34,130 nt of DNA from an uncultured Bacteroidota bacterium (GTDB lineage Bacteria > Bacteroidota > Bacteroidia > Flavobacteriales > BACL11): positions 1 through 34,130 of the forward strand of contig CACHFI010000009.1 in assembly GCA_902579065.1 (NCBI GenBank), written 5' to 3'. Positions 8,480-28,931 of this stretch are shown in pieces. Within the stretch, counting starts at the first letter, position 1. Every line of letters begins with the position of its first letter. A program made the translations under genes and the position numbers. The notes beneath the pieces are model-generated. The model saw only the letters and a program-made list of their open reading frames with translations, was not told the DNA's origin and ran no database searches.

Positions 8480-10003
8480 TTATTTAATTGTTATATTTTT
8501 TGATTTTACACCATTGTTTTGAATTTCAAATTTAATCAATGATTTGTTATTTTTTCTACCTAATAAATCAAAAGATCTATTAACTTTTATATTGTTATTT
8601 ATTTCTTGAATAGACACTGAGTTTATTGGAACTAATTGAACGTTTAGTGTAGTGGTATTATTGTTTAGAACAGAGGCATTAATTGTTTTACTGTGATATC
8701 CTATTTTACTGAAAGTAAATGCGTAGTTTCCTTGGTATATGTATCTATGATAATTTCCTACAGGTAATTTTGAATATACATGTGAACTATCAATATCATG
8801 ATTTACTATTTCAACTTTAGCTTTTAGTGGCATGCCAGTGATACTATCTGTTATTATTCCTCTAAGCCCATAAAGTGATTGTTCCATATAATTATAAAAG
8901 GATGGGTGAGTTGCATCCCAATAGTCTGGTAATTCTTGAGGATTTGGCGTTTTATCATTTGAAAGCTCTAGAGTAAACTCTCTACAATGTTTAAAGTAGT
9001 TCATGTAGTCTTGTCTTCCCCCATCTACTTCATACCAATCATATCCATTAATAATTCCATCATTGTAATTTGTGAAATAATTATTTGGCCCATAAAATTG
9101 ACAAGTATCTGCATATTCATTACAAACATGTTGCCACCAACTATCATCAGCAGTAAGTTGTGACCATGTGTCCCAAGGATAGTTTGCAACAACAGCACCA
9201 GTGTGAAGGTTAGAGGCAAGATTAAAGTTAATTGAATCAGCAAGTCCCATAAAAATTATTGTTTCTTCTTGCCAGGAGTTTCCATCTGGGTGTGGACCGT
9301 CTTGAGGATCTGGGTAGTTTCTATTTAAATCAACAAAGTTTGCGTTTGACCTTGTTGCTCCCCAAACATTACTATTTCCACCGGCATAGGCTCCATCTGG
9401 ATTTGCAAGAGGATTTATCCAAATATCAATTTCATTTACTAGGTTGGTTATTCTACTGTTAACATTATAATTATTTAGTATATCGTCTATAAATCTAAGC
9501 ATTAAAACATAACCAGTAAGTTCATCTCCATGCATTGATGATGTGTATAAAAATGAAGGTTCATTTTCTTTTTGACCTACATTATCAGAAATATTTACTA
9601 TTAAAATTTCTCTTCCAGAGTTTAATGTACCCAAGGAATGAACTTTACATATGTTGGGAAATGAATCAGCAAATGCATACATCATATCAACATATTGATT
9701 ATATGTTGGGTAATAGTCCCAATTACTTTTAGATACATTTTGATAAAAAACTTTGTTGTTTATCAACTCAAAATCAATATTTAATTCTAAAAATCTGATA
9801 AACTGTTTTTTGTTTGCATAAGCATATGCTGTAGTCTTTTCAATCTTGTGATCTAAAGAAATTATTTTTGATAGCCTATCTAGCTCTTGTTTGTTTTTGT
9901 ATTTAAATGAAAAATATATTTCATTTTTATTATTAAATATTTCTTCAATATTTTGACTCAAAAGCGTAAAGGGTAGAAGCAGAATTATAATTATTTTTTT
10001 CAT
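8480..10003 (-). CDS. Secreted zinc carboxypeptidase (M14) with regulatory-like domain and T9SS-like tail
   Basis: A 507-residue metallocarboxypeptidase. The start is taken at the ATG 10003, which gives a signal peptide (MKKIIIILLLPFTLLSQ) and a 10-bp gap to icmF; a longer start at 10048 would overlap icmF. Zinc ligands are His158 and Glu161 (SSMHGDELTG) and His267 (NLHTGA). DLNRNYPD at 225-232 holds the substrate-binding Asn-Arg, and the catalytic Glu346 is in FTLELS. Residues 380-460 form a carboxypeptidase regulatory-like beta domain (GLRGIITDSITGMPLKAKVEI). The end (FDLLGRKNNKSLIKFEIQNNG ... ITIK) resembles a short type A T9SS sorting signal. It is expected to trim C-terminal residues of proteins or peptides at the cell surface or outside. 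Confidence 0.88.
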   Translation of the reverse strand: MKKIIIILLLPFTLLSQNIEEIFNNKNEIYFSFKYKNKQELDRLSKIISLDHKIEKTTAYAYANKKQFIRFLELNIDFELINNKVFYQNVSKSNWDYYPTYNQYVDMMYAFADSFPNICKVHSLGTLNSGREILIVNISDNVGQKENEPSFLYTSSMHGDELTGYVLMLRFIDDILNNYNVNSRITNLVNEIDIWINPLANPDGAYAGGNSNVWGATRSNANFVDLNRNYPDPQDGPHPDGNSWQEETIIFMGLADSINFNLASNLHTGAVVANYPWDTWSQLTADDSWWQHVCNEYADTCQFYGPNNYFTNYNDGIINGYDWYEVDGGRQDYMNYFKHCREFTLELSNDKTPNPQELPDYWDATHPSFYNYMEQSLYGLRGIITDSITGMPLKAKVEIVNHDIDSSHVYSKLPVGNYHRYIYQGNYAFTFSKIGYHSKTINASVLNNNTTTLNVQLVPINSVSIQEINNNIKVNRSFDLLGRKNNKSLIKFEIQNNGVKSKNITIK

Positions 10004-10013
10004 ACTGATTTTG

Positions 10014-13000
10014 TTACATATTTCTTCTATACTGTCCTCCAACTTCAAATAAACAATTTGTTATTTCTCCAAGAGAACAAGTTTTTGAGGCAACCATAAG
10101 TTCTTCAAAAATATTTTTATTTAGTATAGCTGATTCTTGAACTTTTTTTAGTTGTTTTTTTGAGTTGTCTTTTTGTGTTTTATGTAACTCATCTAGCATA
10201 TTAATTTGATATACTTTTTCTTCTTTGGATGCTCTAATTACTTCATTAGGAATTAGAGTAGGAGAGCCTTGTTTATTCATAAAGGTATTTACTCCAATTA
10301 TTGGAAATTCACCAGTATGTTTTAAAGTTTCATAATGTAGAGATTCTTCTTGAATCTTACTTCTTTGATACATTGTTTCCATAGCACCTAATACACCACC
10401 TCTTTCGGTTATTCTGTCAAATTCTACTAAAACAGCTTCTTCAACTAGATCAGTTAATTCTTCAATAATAAATGATCCTTGAAGAGGGTTTTCATTTTTT
10501 GTTAAACCCAACTCTTTGTTAATGATTAACTGAATAGCCATAGCTCTTCTTACAGATTCTTCAGTTGGAGTTGTAATAGCTTCATCATAGGCATTAGTAT
10601 GTAATGAGTTACAATTGTCATAAATTGCATAAAGAGCTTGTAAAGTAGTTCTAATATCATTAAAATCTATTTCTTGAGCGTGTAATGATCTTCCAGATGT
10701 TTGTATATGATATTTTAGCATTTGAGCTCTGTCATTTGCTCCATATTTAAATTTCATTGCTTTTGCCCATATTTTTCTAGCAACTCTTCCAATTACTGAA
10801 TATTCAGGATCGATACCATTACTAAAAAAGAACGAAAGGTTTGGCCCAAATTCATCAATATCCATTCCTCTGCTTAAATAATATTCAACGTATGTAAATC
10901 CATTGGACAATGTGAAGGCAAGTTGTGAAATAGGATTGGCCCCGGCTTCTGCTATGTGGTATCCAGAAATTGAAACTGAATAGAAATTTCTTATTTTTTT
11001 ATTTATGAAAAATTCTTGAACATCACCCATCATTCTCAAGGCAAATTCAGTACTAAATATACAAGTGTTTTGAGCTTGATCTTCTTTTAAGATATCAGCT
11101 TGTACTGTTCCTCTAACCTGGTGCATAGTTTCTTTAGCAATTTTGTCATAAATATCTTTTGGCAAAACTTTATCTCCAGTTGTTCCAAGTAAAAATAATC
11201 CTAGACCATTGTTTCCTTCAGGAATCTCCCCTTGATATTTAGGTCTTTTAGTTCCTTTCTTTTTATAAAAATCCTCTATTTCTTTTTCTATCTTTTTCTC
11301 TAGCTTATTTTTAAAAATATACTTTTCACATTCTTGATCAATAGCTGTGTTCATAAAGAAAGCCAATAGAATAGGAGCAGGTCCATTAATTGTCATGCTA
11401 ACTGACGTTTTAGGATTTGTTAAATCAAATCCTGAATATAGCTTCTTCATATCATCGAGGCAGCATATTGATACTCCAGCATTACCGATTTTACCATATA
11501 TATCAGGTCTTTTGCCGGGGTCATTACCATACAAAGTCACAGAGTCAAAAGCGGTTGATAATCTCTTTGCTTCCATGTCTAAACTCACATAATGAAACCT
11601 TCTGTTGGTTCTTTCAGGACCGCCTTCACCAGCAAACATTCTTGTTGGATCTTCTCCTTCTCTTTTGAAAGGAAAAAGTCCAGATGAATATGGGAATTTA
11701 CCTGGAACATTTTCTTGAAGTTGCCAGTGTAATAAATCTCCCCATCCAGAATATTTTGGTAAAGTTACTTTAGGTATTTTATTATTTGATAAAGAAGTTG
11801 TATGAGTTTTAATTGAAAGAGTGTTTGATCTTACTTGGTAATTGAAAATATCTTCTTTGTAGCTCTTTACCAACTTTGGCCATTCATCAATTAAGGATTT
11901 GTTTTTTGGATCAAGTTCTTTTAGTAACTCCTGGTATTTTTTTTCTAATTCTTCTTTAGCAGATTTTGATCCTTTTTCTAAAATTTCTAATGAACTATTT
12001 AAATTATATAGTTTCTGTGCAATTTCTTTTTGCTCTAAAACCCATTTGTCATATGCTCTATTATTTTCTGAAATTTCAGATAGATATCTAGTACGATTAG
12101 AGGGAATTACGAATATTTTTTCTGACATTTCATCAGTAATTTCAAAACTAGAATTAAAATTTCCAATTTCACGTTCATTAAATTTATTAATTACTTCAGC
12201 ATATAGTGTGTTTGTTCCTGGGTCATTAAATTGAGATGCAATTGTTCCATAAACAGGCATTTTTTCAATTGATTCCTCAAATCTTTGATTATTTCTTTGG
12301 TATTGCTTTTGAACATCTCTTAGAGCATCTAGACTTCCTTTTTTATCAAATTTGTTGATTGCAATTAAATCTGCAAAATCAAGCATATCAATTTTTTCTA
12401 GCTGTGTAGCTGCTCCATATTCTGGAGTCATAACATACAAAGATATATCCGAGTGTTCAACAATTTCGGTATCAGATTGACCAATTCCTGATGTTTCTAA
12501 AATAATTAAATCATAGTTAGCTGCTTTTAAAATATCAATAGCATCATTTACATGTGCTGAAAGAGCAAGGTTTGCTTGTCTTGTTGCAAGAGATCTCATG
12601 TAAACTCTTGGAGATTTAATAGAATTCATTCTTATTCTATCTCCCAATAATGCTCCACCAGTTTTTCTTTTTGATGGATCAACAGAAATAATTGCTATTT
12701 CTTTATTTTCAAAATCTAATATGAATCTTCTAACTAATTCATCAACAAGAGAAGATTTTCCTGCACCTCCTGTTCCTGTAATACCAAGAACAGGTGTTTT
12801 TGAGTTTGATGCAAGATCTTTTATATCTGAAGTAGTTTTTTTATGTAGTTTAGGAAAGTTTTCTACTGCCGTTATCAATCTTGCTATTGTATTTACATCT
12901 TTGTTTTGTAGGTTTTTTATGCAATTTTTAGGATTAATTTTGTCTCCGAGCACAAAATCGGAACTTTCTACTAAATGATTAATCATTCCTTGTAATCCCA

Positions 13001-16863: not shown

Positions 16864-17187
16864 ATGAGAATGTTTTTTGTCATATTATTATTTCTTCCAA
16901 GCTTTTTATTTGCTTCTTTCCCAACAACATGTTTAGAAAATACAGACACTATTAATATTAGTGGATTACAATACAAAGAAATTGGAGTTGATTCTCTATT
17001 TAAATATCCACTTCCAAATGAAAATATGAAGCAATATCGTGAAAGGCTCAAAATAAAAAATATTCAATATTCTAAAGAATCAGTCAAAACCCCAATAACT
17101 TTTTGGCAGATAATTTTAATTATGTTAATTATTATTTTAGTAATATTTATAATCGGTATTGCAACATTATTAAACGATATTTCATAG
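16864..17187 (+). CDS. Small exported protein with C-terminal membrane helix, first of a related pair
   Basis: A 107-residue protein with an N-terminal signal sequence (FFVILLFLPSFLFASFP). A polar middle follows, with a Lys/Arg-rich segment just before the membrane (NMKQYRERLKIKNIQYSKES). One strong transmembrane helix lies at about 80-102 (IILIMLIIILVIFIIGIATLL). It shares layout with the next gene: the same FASFP cleavage region, a KQxxExLKxKN motif and one C-terminal helix. I recognise no family. A second in-frame ATG two codons later is equally possible as start. The two genes are 4 bp apart, so they are co-expressed. Confidence 0.62.
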   Translation: MRMFFVILLFLPSFLFASFPTTCLENTDTINISGLQYKEIGVDSLFKYPLPNENMKQYRERLKIKNIQYSKESVKTPITFWQIILIMLIIILVIFIIGIATLLNDIS

Positions 17188-17191
17188 AAAA

Positions 17192-17539
17192 ATGAAAAAA
17201 ATATTTTTTTTCTTGTTACTATTACCAAATATAATTTTTGCCAGTTTTCCTGTTGATGTATTTGAAATGGATACAATAAGAAAAAATGGTAAAATATATA
17301 TTAAGGTTTCATCTGATGAAAATGTAGTTGATAAAGTCATTACAAATGAATCCAATCAAATTAAAAAACAGAGGGAGGAGCTGAAAGTGAAAAATAAAAA
17401 AAGGAAAAGAACCAATTCTTTACTTGGCTTGTTTGGGAGCTTCTTTGTTGTTACTTTAATTTTAGCTGGTATTGCTATTATTATAATATTTAGATTAATT
17501 ATAAAAGCTTTTATTGACTGGGGTAATTCTAGTGTCTAG
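17192..17539 (+). CDS. Small exported protein with C-terminal membrane helix, second of a related pair
   Basis: A 115-residue protein with a signal sequence (MKKIFFFLLLLPNIIFASFP). A ~50-residue polar region with IKKQREELKVKNKKRKR leads into a long hydrophobic helix (~85-107, FFVVTLILAGIAIIIIFRLI) and a short tail. Together with the preceding gene it looks like a tandem duplication that has diverged strongly. Expected topology: N-terminal part in the periplasm, basic segment next to the membrane, one anchor. Function unknown. An intrinsic terminator 30 bp downstream ends this transcription unit. Confidence 0.62.
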   Translation: MKKIFFFLLLLPNIIFASFPVDVFEMDTIRKNGKIYIKVSSDENVVDKVITNESNQIKKQREELKVKNKKRKRTNSLLGLFGSFFVVTLILAGIAIIIIFRLIIKAFIDWGNSSV

Positions 17540-17627: not shown

Positions 17628-20600
17628 ATGAAGAATTTTATCTCTACTATATTTTTATCTTTTGCTGTATGTTTTAATGCTTTCTCACAAAATACAGTTT
17701 ATGATATTGTATCTAATTCCCCAGATCATACTACTTTAGAAGTAGCTATTGATACATGTGCGCTAAGTTCAACATTGTCTGGGCCTGGTCCATTTACATT
17801 ATTTGCGCCAACGGATGCTGCTTTTAATGCATTACCAGTTGGAACAGTACCTGCACTATTAAATGATATTCCAACTTTAACAAATATATTATTACATCAT
17901 GCAGTTGGAGATAGTGTTATGTCATCAATGTTATCTAATGGTCAAATAGTAACAACATTACTTGGAACAGATTTAACAGTTACAATTGATACAACAGGAG
18001 TATATATTGATGGGGCTATGGTAACTGTGGTCGATGTTATAGCTGACAATGGGGTAGTACACATAATTGATGCGGTATTATTACCACCATCACAAGATTG
18101 TAATGGTATCTATGGAGGTCCTGCACTAGTTGATAGTTGTGGAGTGTGTCAGTTAGCATATATCTATAATTTTGTTACTCATATACCTACTTTTATAAAT
18201 GATACAGCTGGAGTTGTATTAGGGCCTACAGAGATTTTAGTAATGCCAAATGATCCATCTAATCCGCTGTGGAATTCATCTTGTAGTGGTTGTACTGATC
18301 CAATAGCAAATAATTATGATTCATTGGCTTTAATAGATGATATGTCTTGCACATATACTGTTTATGGAATTGTTTCTGGTTCGTCAGATCACTCAACATT
18401 AAAAGCAGCTATTGATGCTTGTTCTTTAGATGGAACTTTATCAGCAACTGGGCCATTTACATTATTTGCGCCAACGGATGCTGCTTTTAATGCATTACCA
18501 GTTGGAACAGTACCTGCACTTTTAAATGATATTCCAACTTTAACAAATATATTATTACATCATGCAGTTGGAGATAGTGTTATGTCATCAATGTTATCTA
18601 ATGGTCAAATAGTAACAACATTACTTGGAACAGATTTAACAGTAACAATTGATACAACAGGAGTGTATATTGATGGGGCTATGGTAACTGTGGTCGATGT
18701 AATAGCTGACAATGGAGTTGTACATGTTATAGATGCTGTATTATTACCTAACCCTGGATGTACAGATACTAATGCTTTAAATTATGATTCTACTGCGATA
18801 TTTGATGATGGATCATGTATGTATCCAGATTGTAATGGAATAGCTTATGGAACTTCATTGTTAGATGATTGTGGAGTTTGTCAAGCAGGATTTATTTATG
18901 ATGATGTTGTAGGAAATATTGTTCAATATGTTACCGATACTTTTGGATTAACAATTACCCCACCCTTATATTTTTGTACGGCTGATAGTTCTTTAAATCC
19001 TCTATGGAACTCTTCATGTAGTGGATGTACTGATCCAATAGCACTGAATTTTGATTCAACAGCAACTGTTGATGATGGCTCATGTGTTTATGGTGCTGCT
19101 CCTTTATTTTTCTCTGAGCATTCTGATGGTGGAGGGTTTAATAGATATTTCGAAATATATAACCCAACTCAAGATACAGTTGTGTTAGATGATTATGCAT
19201 GGGCTAGAGTAGGAGGTAATCCAACAACTCCTGGAGTTTATGAAACCTGGAATGATTTTGCTCCTGGTGCAGTAATATTACCTCATGGTGTGTATATAGT
19301 GGCTCATGTTAATTCTAATGGTTTTATTCTAAATCAAGCAGATATGATTTCTCAGTTATTAAGTAATGGAGATGATGGTTTGGCACTTGTATTTGGTGAT
19401 GAACCAGTTGTTCCAACTCACCCAGATAGTGGTTTGTATAATATATTAGATTGGGTAGGAGATTGGAATGGTGATCCAGGAACTGGTTGGGATGTTGCTG
19501 GAGTTTCTGAAGGAACTGCTAATCATACTCTAGTTAGAAAATGTGGAATAATGCGTGGGGATACAAGCTGGAGTAATGCTGCTGGAACTGATCCGTTAAA
19601 TTCACAATGGATAGTATTTGGATATGAAAATTGGAATTATTTGGGTTCTCATTCAAATTCTACAGTATATACAAATTCATTTGATACTATTTGTAATGGC
19701 CTGTCAATAACAGTAAACGGAAACGTATACGACTCAAGCGGAGTTTATAACGATACATTGACTAGTATTTTTGGTTGTGATAGTATAGTTACCACCAATC
19801 TTCATGTTTTATCTCAATCTGCATCATTTCGAAATCTTGATTATACAATTTGTTATGGTGACACTGCCACTGTAGCTGGAAATAAATATTATCAAACTGG
19901 TGTTTATACAAATGTTTTAACAAATTCAGTTGGATGTGATAGTATTATAACGCTTGATTTGAGAGTTGTTTCACCAACAAATTTAGTGTATGATATTTGT
20001 CCTGGAGACAGTGTTTCTGTTGGTTCAAATGTTTATTTTTCAGCTGGAAATTATACTGATTCCTTAGTTGCATCAGGTGGTTGTGATAGTATAATAAACA
20101 CTGAAATAAATATATATTCTCAGTACAATTCTGTCTATGGAGGAATATTAAATAATACTGTAGGTGGAGGAGGTTATTATACTGGCGATCAACACCTTAT
20201 ACTTGATTGCTATGTACCTACGAATATTGTTTCTGCAACAGTTTACTCTGATGGAAATACCATCTATGAATTTGAACTAAGAGACAATAATGGTAATACA
20301 TTACAAGATACAATTTATGCTTTAGTTGATGGAGCAAATTTTGTTACTCTTAATTTTGAAATGCCAGTTGGAACTGATTTTGAATTAGGGGTTTCTCCAG
20401 CATCTAATTTTGGAGGATTATATAGAAATAATGCTGGAGTTAGTTTTCCATATGATTTTGCAAATCTAGCATCTATAACTCAATCAAGTGCACAGCAATT
20501 TGGTGATTATTATTACTTTTTCTATAACATTGAGATGCGTGCTTCAAACGCTCCTACTGAGTATGCCATATGTCAAGGTGAAAGTATTTCAGTTGGATCA

Positions 20601-21035
20601 AGTATTTATACAACATCAGGATTATACATTGATACTATGATGTCTTCTTCTGGATGTGATAGTTTAGTGTATACAAACTTAACAGTAAATCCTGTTATAA
20701 ATTATCAAAATAATCAAACAATTTGTCTAGGAGAGACCTATTCTATTGGTAATAATATTTATTCTGTAAGCGGAACTTACATAGATACTTTCCAAACTTC
20801 TTTTGGCTGTGATAGTTTAGTATCTACTATTTTATTTGTCAATCCTATTTCAGGTGGTTCAAGTACTAATAACACTACTATTTGTTATGGAGATTATTTT
20901 ATGGTAGGAAATAATATGTATACTAATTCAGGAACTTACTATGATACTCTTATTGGATCTAATGGTTGTGATAGTACAGTTACAACAAATTTAACTGTTC
21001 TTTCTGCTGCATATCCTGTAATTTTTTGGAGGTGA
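17628..21035 (+). CDS. Giant fasciclin-domain surface adhesin, N-terminal part (frame broken at about 21022-21027)
   Basis: The first 1135 residues of what should be a ~1481-residue T9SS surface protein. Signal peptide: MKNFISTIFLSFAVCFNAFSQ. Two fasciclin domains (~23-160 and ~243-375) are nearly identical in their cores. Each is followed by a Cys-rich module of DCNG, DDCGVCQ and SGCTDPIAxNxDSxAxxDDGSC elements, possibly calcium-binding. Next comes a lamin-tail-like domain (~490-680; RYFEIYNPTQDTVVLDDY). Then follow six Ig-like ~45-residue repeats with ICxGxSxxVGxxxY and a GCDSxVxTNLTV end. A ~135-residue module containing LILDCYVP lies between repeats 3 and 4. The frame ends at TGA 21033-21035 just inside a second copy of that module. 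Removing one T from the T6 run at 21022-21027 joins it to the next entry. Likely role: adhesion or matrix contact. Confidence 0.85.
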   Translation: MKNFISTIFLSFAVCFNAFSQNTVYDIVSNSPDHTTLEVAIDTCALSSTLSGPGPFTLFAPTDAAFNALPVGTVPALLNDIPTLTNILLHHAVGDSVMSSMLSNGQIVTTLLGTDLTVTIDTTGVYIDGAMVTVVDVIADNGVVHIIDAVLLPPSQDCNGIYGGPALVDSCGVCQLAYIYNFVTHIPTFINDTAGVVLGPTEILVMPNDPSNPLWNSSCSGCTDPIANNYDSLALIDDMSCTYTVYGIVSGSSDHSTLKAAIDACSLDGTLSATGPFTLFAPTDAAFNALPVGTVPALLNDIPTLTNILLHHAVGDSVMSSMLSNGQIVTTLLGTDLTVTIDTTGVYIDGAMVTVVDVIADNGVVHVIDAVLLPNPGCTDTNALNYDSTAIFDDGSCMYPDCNGIAYGTSLLDDCGVCQAGFIYDDVVGNIVQYVTDTFGLTITPPLYFCTADSSLNPLWNSSCSGCTDPIALNFDSTATVDDGSCVYGAAPLFFSEHSDGGGFNRYFEIYNPTQDTVVLDDYAWARVGGNPTTPGVYETWNDFAPGAVILPHGVYIVAHVNSNGFILNQADMISQLLSNGDDGLALVFGDEPVVPTHPDSGLYNILDWVGDWNGDPGTGWDVAGVSEGTANHTLVRKCGIMRGDTSWSNAAGTDPLNSQWIVFGYENWNYLGSHSNSTVYTNSFDTICNGLSITVNGNVYDSSGVYNDTLTSIFGCDSIVTTNLHVLSQSASFRNLDYTICYGDTATVAGNKYYQTGVYTNVLTNSVGCDSIITLDLRVVSPTNLVYDICPGDSVSVGSNVYFSAGNYTDSLVASGGCDSIINTEINIYSQYNSVYGGILNNTVGGGGYYTGDQHLILDCYVPTNIVSATVYSDGNTIYEFELRDNNGNTLQDTIYALVDGANFVTLNFEMPVGTDFELGVSPASNFGGLYRNNAGVSFPYDFANLASITQSSAQQFGDYYYFFYNIEMRASNAPTEYAICQGESISVGSSIYTTSGLYIDTMMSSSGCDSLVYTNLTVNPVINYQNNQTICLGETYSIGNNIYSVSGTYIDTFQTSFGCDSLVSTILFVNPISGGSSTNNTTICYGDYFMVGNNMYTNSGTYYDTLIGSNGCDSTVTTNLTVLSAAYPVIFWR
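17790..18052 (+). repeat. Fasciclin-core direct repeat, copy 1 (263 bp)
   Basis: Matches 18453-18715 at a constant offset of 663 bp, with four mismatches in 263 bp by eye. All four are third-base synonymous changes, so the two encoded segments are identical in protein sequence. Confidence 0.92.
18453..18715 (+). repeat. Fasciclin-core direct repeat, copy 2 (263 bp)
   Basis: Second copy of 17790-18052. Flanking sequence on both sides (residues before PFTLFAPTDAAF and after DNGVVH) diverges abruptly, so the near-identity is confined to the domain core. Confidence 0.92.
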
Positions 21036-22074
21036 ACCTGATAGTATAAATAATCCTGGAGGATATTTTAGTTTTGACAGAAGACTTGTATTAGACTGTT
21101 ATGTCCCTTCAAGAATTGTATCTGCTTTGATTTATGTTGAAGATCCTGGAGTATTAACATTTGAATTAAGAGATGATAATGGAACAATCATAGAAAGTTC
21201 AACTCAAAATGTTGTTGCGGGTTCTCAAAGAGTTACTTTAAACTTTGATTTACCTGTGGGAACGGATTATGAACTTGGATTAGATAACCCAAGTCAAATA
21301 GGAGTGTTTAGAAATAATGCTGGTGCTACGTATCCATATAATTTTGGAAATTTAGCTTCAATTACTGGATCTACAGCAAATAGTTCGGGTTATTACTATT
21401 TCTACTATGATATTGAAATGGCTGCAAATTTAACTCCTAACATTGTATCTATTTGTGATGGAAATTCAGTTACAGTTGGATCAAATACTTATACTACAAC
21501 AGGAATTTATTACGATACATTAAATGCTTCAAATTTCTGTGATAGTATTATTTATACTAACTTAACTGTAAATCAACCTTTTGTTCCATCAATTGCAACT
21601 AATCCGTTTGATGGAAAAATTTGTTTAGGAGATGCTGCTGTTATTACTGCATCAACAGGTTATCAGTCATACTCTTGGGATAATGGTATGACAGGACAAA
21701 TAATTACAGTTAGTCCAACGGCAGATCAGTTATATACACTAACTACAATTGATATTAATGGATGTGATGCGGTTGCAACTGTTATGATATACGTTGACTC
21801 TTGTAATACAAATATATCAGATGAAGGAACACACTTTTCTATTTATCCTAACCCTTCATCCTCATTAGTATATTTTGAATTCAATAACTCGAATAATAAC
21901 GTTGAAAGAATTAGTGTTATTAATGTTCTTGGAGAAGAAATATTTAGAGTTAATGACATCAGTGTTGCTGAAAATATTACATCTATTGATTTTTCAAATT
22001 ATCCAAAGGGAGTATATCTTGTTAAAATAGCTACAAAAAGCGGAGATATAAATAGAAAACTAATTATTGAATAA
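21028..22074 (+). CDS. Fasciclin-domain surface adhesin, C-terminal part with T9SS sorting domain (after frameshift)
   Basis: Continuation in the +1 frame of the preceding entry. From 21028 it reads GGEPDSINNPGGYFSF, then LVLDCYVPSRIVSALIY, the second copy of the ~135-residue module found upstream. Next come a seventh GNSVTVGSNTYTTTG repeat with CDSIIYTNLTV, and a PKD-like domain (SYSWDNGMTGQIITVSPTA). The end is a canonical type A T9SS sorting domain (FSIYPNPSSSLVYFEF, YPKGVYLVKI, RKLIIE). The first start codon in this frame is a TTG at 21127, inside a conserved module, so an independent gene is unlikely. Without this part the protein could not be exported by T9SS. Sequencing error, phase variation and true decay are all possible. 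Confidence 0.82.
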   Translation, partial: GGEPDSINNPGGYFSFDRRLVLDCYVPSRIVSALIYVEDPGVLTFELRDDNGTIIESSTQNVVAGSQRVTLNFDLPVGTDYELGLDNPSQIGVFRNNAGATYPYNFGNLASITGSTANSSGYYYFYYDIEMAANLTPNIVSICDGNSVTVGSNTYTTTGIYYDTLNASNFCDSIIYTNLTVNQPFVPSIATNPFDGKICLGDAAVITASTGYQSYSWDNGMTGQIITVSPTADQLYTLTTIDINGCDAVATVMIYVDSCNTNISDEGTHFSIYPNPSSSLVYFEFNNSNNNVERISVINVLGEEIFRVNDISVAENITSIDFSNYPKGVYLVKIATKSGDINRKLIIE

Positions 22075-26583: not shown

Positions 26584-27396
26584 TTATCTCTTGTTTTTTT
26601 TGAATTCTTTTAGTCCAGGTTCCCAACTTGATCTAATTTCTTTTTCATTTAATCCTGAAATAATTTGTGTTCTAAGTTTATCAGTCCCAGCAAGCTTGTC
26701 AAAAAAATTATTAAAAAAATCTTCTTTGTTTGATGTTTGTTTAAATGACTCTATAAGCCAATTTAGATTAATAGAACTTAGATAGGGATAGTTTTCTAAA
26801 TTTCTTCCAGTACAAGTTTTATTTTCATGTTTTGGAAATTTACTACCAGGACCACTTTTTGGAATAAAAGCATAACTATAAAACTTTAAAAAAGGTGAGC
26901 CAAAATGTTGGAATGGTTTGTCAGTTCCACGTCCAACACTTACGTTTGTACCTTCAAATAAGCATAAAGACGGATATAGATTTATTGATTTGCTGTTTGG
27001 AAGATTAGGTGATGGTTTGATAGGAAGTTCATATAAATCATTTCTATTATAATTTATCATATTAATAACTTCTAATTCACAAGAATCATCTATCCATTTT
27101 TCTCCAACAATCATATTAGCATATTCTCCAATGGTCATTCCATGAACTATGGGAACCTCGTGCATTCCAACGAATGATTTAAATTCTTTTTCAAGAATAG
27201 GACCATCAACATAATGTCCATTTGGATTAGGTCTATCCAGAACAATTACTTTTATATTGTTTTCACCAGCGGCTTCCATTGCATAGTGAAGAGTGGAAAT
27301 GTAGGTGTAAAATCTTGCTCCTACATCTTGTATATCAAAAATAATAATGTCTATACCATTTAACTGCTCACTCGTTGGTTTTTTTATTTTTTCCAT
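26584..27396 (-). CDS. namZ: NamZ-type exo-beta-N-acetylmuramidase (DUF1343), C-terminal part after frameshift
   Basis: The larger downstream part of a DUF1343/NamZ protein. It reads KKPTSEQLNGIDIIIFDIQD, GARFYTYISTLHYAM, VLDRPNPNGHYVDGPIL, MTIGEYANMIVGE, KPSPNLPNSKSINLYPSL, FEGTNVSVGRGTDKPFQHFG, ending with RSSWEPGLKEFKK. NamZ removes terminal MurNAc from peptidoglycan fragments. The ATG at 27396 is only an accidental start: the residues before KKPTSEQ read meaningfully only in the frame of the next entry. The real protein joins after one base is removed from the A7 run (27385-27379 on this strand). The merged length would be ~374 residues, near the family norm. Confidence 0.85.
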   Translation of the reverse strand: MEKIKKPTSEQLNGIDIIIFDIQDVGARFYTYISTLHYAMEAAGENNIKVIVLDRPNPNGHYVDGPILEKEFKSFVGMHEVPIVHGMTIGEYANMIVGEKWIDDSCELEVINMINYNRNDLYELPIKPSPNLPNSKSINLYPSLCLFEGTNVSVGRGTDKPFQHFGSPFLKFYSYAFIPKSGPGSKFPKHENKTCTGRNLENYPYLSSINLNWLIESFKQTSNKEDFFNNFFDKLAGTDKLRTQIISGLNEKEIRSSWEPGLKEFKKNKR

Positions 27397-27709
27397 AAAG
27401 TGAAATTATAGGCAATCCTGTTTTACTGTCATATTCATTGTCAATTTTGGCTCCTGCATCTTCAGTTCCTCTAAAGCCATGTTCAGGTGAGAAAACAGAT
27501 ACAATATTTTGTTTTAGTGAAAGGAGTGTGTCAACAAGATGTATATCATTTACTAATGATGTTTGATTTCCAACAATAGCTAGATTTTTATTATCAATAG
27601 AATTGATAATTTCATCCATTCTTTCTGATCCTAAAATAAGTTGCTGAGCATGCAATCCTAGACTAGAAAGAATAAGTAGTATGATAATATTTTGTTTTAT
27701 TTTAGCCAT
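27368..27709 (-). CDS. namZ: NamZ-type exo-beta-N-acetylmuramidase (DUF1343), N-terminal part
   Basis: Start ATG at 27709, giving a signal peptide (MAKIKQNIIILLILSSLGLHAQ), so the enzyme acts outside the cytoplasm. It continues with LAIVGNQTSLVN, VVSVFSPEHGFRG-type sequence (here IVSVFSPEHGFRGTEDAG) and GLPIISLYGKNKK, then stops at TGA 27370-27368. The SPEHGF motif contains the Glu I recall as the proposed catalytic residue. The conserved continuation KPTSEQL lies in the +1 frame. The gene is divergent from the LolC/E-like gene, with start codons one base apart. Confidence 0.85.
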   Translation of the reverse strand: MAKIKQNIIILLILSSLGLHAQQLILGSERMDEIINSIDNKNLAIVGNQTSLVNDIHLVDTLLSLKQNIVSVFSPEHGFRGTEDAGAKIDNEYDSKTGLPIISLYGKNKKTNE

Positions 27710-27710
27710 T

Positions 27711-28931
27711 ATGAATACATCTCTTTTTATTGCAAAAAGATTATATAATGCAAAAGAAAACAATAATAGTTATACACGCCCTATAATTCGTATAGCAATT
27801 TTAGCTGTTGCTCTCTCAGTATCTATTATGCTGTTATCAGTATTTATTCTTTCAGGTTTTAAAGCAGAGATTAGCGATAAAGTATTTGGTTTTGGTGGAC
27901 ATGTAAGTGTAACCAAATTTAGCTACAACCAATCTTATGAAAATGATCCAATAAATTATTCTAAAGAAATTGTTTTAAAAATAGAATCAATAGATGATGT
28001 TGAAAATATCCAGCAATTTGCTACTAAAGCTGGTATAATTAAAAAGGAAGAAGAGATTTTAGGAGTTATTATTAAGGGTGTTGGTCAAGACTATAATTGG
28101 AAGTTTTTTGAAAAAAATCTTGTTTTAGGTGAACTTCCTATTTATGATTCTGTAACAAGCAATAAGGTGTTAATTTCTGAGAACATAAGTAAAAAAATGA
28201 AGCTCGAAATAGGTGATGACCTTGTGATGTATTTTGTACAAAAGCCAACTAGAGTTCGGAAATTTATAATTTCAGGTATCTACAAAACAGGTTTAACTGA
28301 ATTTGATGAAATAACACTGCTTGCAGATATAAAACATATTCAAAAACTAAATAATTGGAATAATAATCAAATTGGAGGATATGAAGTGTTATTAAGCAAC
28401 ATTGATAATTTACAATACAATTCTGAATTAATTGATGAAACAATTGATTTTGATTTAAAAGCAATTAGTATAAAGGATAAATACCCCCAAATATTTGATT
28501 GGTTAAGACTACAAGATTTTAACGTTCTTATTATTATTATTTTGATGCTAATAGTCGGTGGTGTAAATATGGTAACCTCATTATTAATTATAATTTTAGA
28601 GAAAAGTAGATTAATAGGGGTTTTAAAAGCAATAGGTGCTACTAATTGGGATATAAGAAAAGTTTTTATTTATAATTCTCTCTATATAATTTCATCAGGA
28701 TTATTATTTGGAAATCTTGTTGCACTTTCTTTTTCAATTGCTCAGAAATATTTTAATCTTATTAAGCTTGATGAAAATATTTATTTTATGAGCTATGTTC
28801 CAATAAAAATTGAGTTTTTATCATTACTATTAATAAATTTTGGGACTATTATAATTTGCTATCTTATTTTGGTTATTCCATCGACAGTGATATCTAAAAT
28901 ATCTCCAGCTAAATCAATTAAGTTTGAATAG
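27711..28931 (+). CDS. LolC/LolE-like ABC transporter permease (FtsX family)
   Basis: A 406-residue inner-membrane permease. The start is taken at ATG 27711 (MNTSLFIAKRLYNAKENN), the usual beginning of this family, rather than 27681. The first transmembrane helix (IAILAVALSVSIMLLSVFIL) is followed by a large periplasmic domain of ~220 residues. Three helices follow near the C-terminus: VLIIIILMLIVGGVNMVTSLL, YNSLYIISSGLLFGNLVALS, and LLLINFGTIIICYLILVIP. LIGVLKAIGATNWDIRKVF is the FtsX coupling-helix signature. It probably works with an ATPase encoded elsewhere in releasing lipoproteins from the inner membrane or a related envelope task. No ATPase gene is adjacent. Confidence 0.87.
   Translation: MNTSLFIAKRLYNAKENNNSYTRPIIRIAILAVALSVSIMLLSVFILSGFKAEISDKVFGFGGHVSVTKFSYNQSYENDPINYSKEIVLKIESIDDVENIQQFATKAGIIKKEEEILGVIIKGVGQDYNWKFFEKNLVLGELPIYDSVTSNKVLISENISKKMKLEIGDDLVMYFVQKPTRVRKFIISGIYKTGLTEFDEITLLADIKHIQKLNNWNNNQIGGYEVLLSNIDNLQYNSELIDETIDFDLKAISIKDKYPQIFDWLRLQDFNVLIIIILMLIVGGVNMVTSLLIIILEKSRLIGVLKAIGATNWDIRKVFIYNSLYIISSGLLFGNLVALSFSIAQKYFNLIKLDENIYFMSYVPIKIEFLSLLLINFGTIIICYLILVIPSTVISKISPAKSIKFE

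Follow-up and report, generated by a model that had tools for sequence, protein, structure and literature searches.

Probable gene conversion between the cores of two old fasciclin domains in a putative T9SS-exported protein of an uncultured Flavobacteriales lineage

The window, i.e. the whole 34,130-nucleotide stretch of DNA analysed here (contig CACHFI010000009.1), carries a gene whose first open reading frame encodes 1135 residues with two fasciclin domains (Table 1). The PF02469 profile matches this protein with 211.1 bits (curated cut-off 22) in two stretches, each covering positions 2-123 of the 123 positions of the profile. A profile built from 12 domains of the window and its relatives matches the solved chains of TGFBI, periostin and MPT70; an AlphaFold2 model of one fasciclin domain (alignment A1) had a mean pLDDT of 44.5 and was discarded. 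Each fasciclin domain is followed by a DCNG...CGVC...CSGCTDP linker module, after which come a Lamin-tail-domain (LTD) match, which is weak (22.7 bits, below the curated cut-off of 34.3), and the CDSI-type repeats. Linker 2 is preceded by one extra GCTDT unit and the spacing of the two linkers differs. A second internal repeat of the gene (20343-20691 versus 21232-21574) is 67.6% identical and not homogenised.

Table 1. Coordinates of the features discussed, in window numbering unless a locus label is given
Feature	Position	Strand	Basis or remark
ORF of 1135 aa	17628..21035	+	signal-like N terminus, two fasciclin domains, CGVC/GCTDP linker modules, CDSI-type repeats
Fasciclin domain 1 (PF02469)	17697..18089	+	profile match
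Diverged 5' flank of domain 1	17697..17789	+	partner 18360-18452; dS about 1.0, dN 0.27
Homogenised core copy 1 (putative conversion tract)	17790..18052	+	codon comparison; best-scoring segment 17790-18037
Linker module 1 (DCNG...CGVC...CSGCTDP)	18096..18356	+	old paralogue of 18828-19091
Fasciclin domain 2 (PF02469)	18360..18752	+	profile match
Homogenised core copy 2	18453..18715	+	codon comparison at offset 663
Linker module 2	18828..19091	+	old paralogue of 18096-18356
Run of six T (five in the ortholog of G003)	21022..21027	+	frame shift places the C-terminal part in a second ORF
Continuation ORF with type IX secretion C-terminal sorting domain (PF18962, TIGR04183)	21127..22074	+	
Short-tail protein, L037	2295-2840		
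Short-tail protein, L039	4051-4596		
Short-tail protein, L051	3264-3812		
Short-tail protein, window	8480-10048	-	

The T9SS sorting domain is recognised by both profiles, but in the second ORF, past a one-base frameshift. Three orthologs (G003, G004C7 and G001) keep one uninterrupted frame where the window gene splits, and in G001 the sorting domain lies within the single ORF. The gene product is a modular secreted protein and a probable T9SS substrate. Fasciclin domains are protein-binding domains and, judging from their general behaviour and from the T9SS tail, the protein may act as a cell-surface adhesin. Elsewhere in the window, a gene for a NamZ exo-beta-N-acetylmuramidase (26584-27763, minus strand) is divided into two overlapping ORFs beside A runs near 27380-27395, a second homopolymer frameshift, which suggests either indel-prone sequencing or real frame loss. 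Since two such frameshifts are present, indels in this assembly, the only one for the species, are not fully reliable. Several secreted-looking proteins of the family end in short tails, LLGKKV...LDIYSNGKVVKRFNP or DLLGRKNN...FEIQNNGVKSKNITIK, resembling the second half of the T9SS sorting domain; PF18962 and TIGR04183 gave no match in the three of these proteins that were scanned (the L034 copy of L039, L051 and window 8483-10048).

The locus is regarded as orthologous among relatives because the part from the LTD onward is common to them (511-518 aligned codons) and because of the neighbouring genes. Downstream, on the opposite strand, the window, G004C7 and G001 carry a gene that, from its sequence, we take to be valyl-tRNA-synthetase-like. 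Upstream, a small membrane-protein ORF is found in the window and G001, and a T9SS-tail protein together with a MORN_2-like small protein in the window and G003. The window gene is also preceded by a pair of adjoining small ORFs for secreted or membrane proteins (16864-17187 and 17192-17539), probable paralogues whose starts are alike, and an ORF resembling them lies upstream of the G001 ortholog.

Codon-by-codon comparison reproduced exactly the observation of the sequence-only reading, namely two 263-bp segments, 663 bp apart, with four silent differences. All are third-position changes, at 17858 (CTA/CTT), 17981 (GTT/GTA), 18002 (GTA/GTG) and 18038 (GTT/GTA), and the exact runs of at least 15 nt between the two cores measure 68, 122, 20 and 35 nt. 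Over its 87 codons, the core pair shows no amino-acid change, corresponding to a dS of 0.064 and a dN of 0 (NG86). Mismatches at 17789 and 18053 delimit the tract, and the adjacent domain sequence is indeed strongly diverged, as had been claimed: the 31 codons of the 5' flank contain 29 nucleotide and 12 amino-acid differences (dS 1.01, dN 0.27), and the 13 codons of the 3' flank, close to saturation, contain 11 and 2. The linker modules differ at 102 nucleotides and 41 residues over 87 aligned codons. Taken over their whole length, the two domains share 88.8% nucleotide and 90% amino-acid identity, and apart from the fasciclin core pair no repeat above 85% identity turned up in the 34-kb window. 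Among codons specifying the same amino acid, silent changes affect 4 of 87 in the core versus 9 of 19 in the 5' flank (Fisher p = 1.4e-5).

Under neutrality, four silent changes out of four would arise with a probability of 0.004-0.008, which shows purifying selection on the core. The stronger proposal, selection for an identical protein, is not needed. With a median dN/dS between genomes of 0.153 in the core (0.223 in the 5' flank), about 1.9 replacements are expected (0.153 x 0.064 x 195.8 sites) and none would be seen about 15% of the time, so that ordinary purifying selection suffices. Other near-identical pairs do carry replacements, for instance the G013 copies, with 3 silent and 4 replacement changes.

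A rate-aware patch test, scanning with per-column rates derived from between-genome pairs, gave p = 5e-6 for the window pair (200,000 simulations), with 17790-18037 as the segment. In every test, core and flank were delimited by the window pair. Pair tests used 55 full-length domain rows taken from 81, leaving out 11 frame-broken G007 rows, 13 domains cut by contig ends, G001C54 and G034C56; a weak G002 match stayed outside the domain comparison. As 10.0% of the between-genome pairs pass at p 0.0205, the test is anti-conservative and the empirical rank is more trustworthy: none of the 1418 between-genome domain pairs scores as high as the window pair. What is seen is a low-dS patch, diverged on both sides and unexplained by column rates, i.e. 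the pattern that identifies intragenic gene conversion.

With high confidence, we read the window pair as the product of a non-reciprocal gene conversion between old paralogous fasciclin domains. What is directly observed is a patch with diverged sequence on either side, its synonymous divergence, and its absence from same-genus relatives. Given this divergence at each edge and linkers that are old paralogues, the domains are old and only their core was equalised.

Unequal crossover within the core, yielding a hybrid domain instead of a non-crossover conversion, has counterparts in the one-sided patches of relatives; the pair G071C7_1/2, for example, matches exactly throughout columns 0-199 and diverges beyond them, as is typical of crossover. 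Here, however, divergence is found on either side of the patch. Two exchanges would be needed for this, a conversion or a double crossover, and we find an origin by unequal crossover unlikely. The sequence-only reading had also left room for duplication. A recent tandem duplication of the whole fasciclin unit, with flanks then diverging fast, would fit the variation of domain number among relatives and the existence of near-whole-domain duplicates, such as those of G024 with 3 differences in 393 nt. Such a history would hardly produce the gap between saturated flanks (dS about 1) and a core at 0.064, nor linkers that are old paralogues with different spacing, and in another genus the near-identity of duplicates extends over the flank as well. 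Duplication would copy the flanks too and a single crossover leaves one diverged side; hence a patch with divergence on either side, between domains that are old paralogues, favours non-crossover conversion, and we hold a whole-unit duplication to be quite improbable.

An artefact of assembly or amplification, whether a collapsed or duplicated copy or a chimera, had to be weighed for a genome that is 61.6% complete in 71 contigs, with two homopolymer frameshifts in the window, the more so as contigs from related genomes stop within a fasciclin domain in 13 cases, meaning that these repeats do break assemblies. Yet neither the 5' flanks nor the linkers of the two copies are the same, the exact repeats reach 122 nt at most, random error would rarely leave all four differences silent (the same P of 0.004-0.008), and similar arrays occur in independent records, including JAOHSR010000010.1 and CALJFR010000017.1; we therefore give this explanation little credit. 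Finally, strong protein or synonymous constraint on the core alone, keeping old copies alike, would accord with the lower between-genome dN/dS of the core relative to the 5' flank, but it is very improbable, being refuted by between-gene divergence unless the constraint were unique to the window lineage, since the same core columns silently differ at a median of 44% of amino-acid-identical codons in 1437 between-gene domain pairs and the window cores stand at a dS of 0.59-1.05 from six same-genus domains, among them the single fasciclin domain of the G003 ortholog at 0.95-0.96.

According to the conversion reading, about 250-263 bp would have been copied from one fasciclin domain, the putative donor, onto the other, between the N-proximal conserved motif GPFTLFAPTDAAFN and the C-terminal motif ADNGVVH. 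The copying may have relied on RecA-type homologous recombination without crossover; the four silent differences between the cores would have accumulated afterwards, with ordinary purifying selection acting on both. The event falls well after the divergence from the closest relative sampled (core dS 0.064 versus dS about 1; the downstream part of the ortholog is at a dS of 1.12 from the window gene), yet not fresh, so that the earlier description of the event as recent holds relative to this split but not for the copies themselves. The direction of transfer was sought through flank and core dS to the six same-genus domains, among which the core values failed to separate the two copies. Contig C22 of G000, the genome to which the window belongs, starts inside a further fasciclin domain (L003, 2-124) belonging to a second locus; after it comes a short C-terminal tail like that of the five-domain genes in G004 and G005. 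This locus B was considered as a donor and rejected: its 123 nt are identical to the window copies at 93/123 and 96/123 positions, which argues against recent exchange over the readable part.

A match at 1e-12 was obtained in 31 of the 52 family genomes searched. Five-domain fasciclin genes occur in two species of the same genus, G004 (JAOHSR010000010.1, isolate AH-229-A09) and G005 (MAG record CALJFR010000017.1), the compared stretches being letter for letter identical to each record. Within genes, 20 of 48 domain pairs show a patch at BH 0.05 in the anti-conservative test, distributed over 13 of 17 genes; at a common cut-off, 21 of the 48 within-gene pairs show one versus 142 of the 1418 between-genome pairs. 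The nearest core lies within the same gene for 30 of 46 domains, and the nearest 5' flank for 24 of 46. In another genus, G013, G024 and G035 have two copies at a locus whose identity between species is 0.83-1.00 (150-nt bins), and the 5' flanks of paralogues differ by 2-3 nt within a species compared with 10-12 nt between these three species.

Whether the copies coevolve in relatives, a comparison proposed earlier between strains and made here between species, depends on the array. Copies of one species are closer to each other than to their orthologues for the window core and for G013, G024 and G035, but not for most domains of G004, G005 and G006 and for none of those of G068C3 and G069C1; in these latter arrays, domains group mostly by position across species. 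Concerted evolution of fasciclin arrays therefore does not appear to be universal. The patchy homogenisation, with paralogues closer than orthologues in one genus, is the feature shared with intragenic conversion and concerted evolution as known elsewhere, whereas the position-specific identity that several arrays retain across species departs from it. The window case adds one more example of a process already known, an ordinary repeat homogenisation that recurs in related bacteria. In the literature searched, titles and abstract openings gave no sign that gene conversion between fasciclin domains of bacteria had been described before. For a secreted protein from an uncultured Flavobacteriales lineage, the window offers a clean example, controlled for rate, of the conversion of a domain core, and the process would be spread through the family.

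At the orthologous locus, the number of fasciclin domains is two in the window, one in G003 and zero in G001, the latter two genes having a Copper-bind domain in addition; the G004 contig ends before the fasciclin-bearing part of the gene. In the other genus, the corresponding counts are 2, 2, 2 and 1 (G013, G024, G035 and G031). These counts compare species, each represented by one assembly, and short-read assemblies may collapse copies. They lend indirect support to the suggestion that recombination in the repeat could change domain number. As judged from these comparisons, conversion together with unequal crossover would homogenise the arrays and alter domain number in many related genomes, and homogenisation probably makes the number of fasciclin domains unstable.

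Both window domains score far above the Pfam cut-off, as members of the FAS1/fasciclin proteins (PF02469) that include the TGFBI and periostin arrays. The window protein differs from those arrays in being bacterial, in its CGVC/GCTDP linkers and T9SS tail and in the near-identical central patch. Another parallel is provided by the Periscope Proteins, bacterial surface proteins with highly identical tandem folded domains, the number of which varies by recombination; in their authors' proposal, repeats that are very similar in DNA enable intragenic recombination, by which repeats are lost or gained (PMC8201768, PMC9704523). Further marks of that class are a repeat number differing between closely related strains and a rod-like stalk on which an adhesive domain is displayed. 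Shared features are the modular build, domain repeats of high DNA identity, a domain number varying among relatives and repeats that break assemblies. On the other hand, the window has two copies only, separated by linkers and near-identical in the core alone: Periscope repeats exceed 50 residues with high coding identity, compared with 4 of 87 codons differing in the window core and 88.8% nucleotide identity for the whole domain. On these between-species data, the window protein resembles Periscope Proteins and is not classed as one. The terms 'fasciclin' and 'bacteroidetes' are absent from the main text of PMC8201768.

A tentative and rather doubtful extension is that the fasciclin arrays of this small-genome Flavobacteriales family are surface proteins of variable length, exported by the T9SS, and correspond in Bacteroidota to the Periscope Proteins. 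The recombining stretch between the two motifs might then act as a built-in shuffling cassette, in which conversion homogenises the cores and crossover adds or removes domains, most of the variation being hidden by short-read assemblies. The 13 contig ends inside a fasciclin domain compare with 2.1 expected, an about six-fold excess (Poisson 3e-7), for an expectation based on rounded genome sizes and contig counts of 27 genomes, without G001, G002, G007 and G034, and for a count in which neighbouring ends may represent one gap, as in G009. Since contigs break inside fasciclin domains, the copy numbers in these assemblies, including that of G031, may be too low, and if strain-level length variation is real, public assemblies would undercount the domains. 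A further fasciclin array, L075 (G007:C2:45165-47221), lies on a 441-kb contig and has most of its domains frame-broken, by sequencing indels or by decay.
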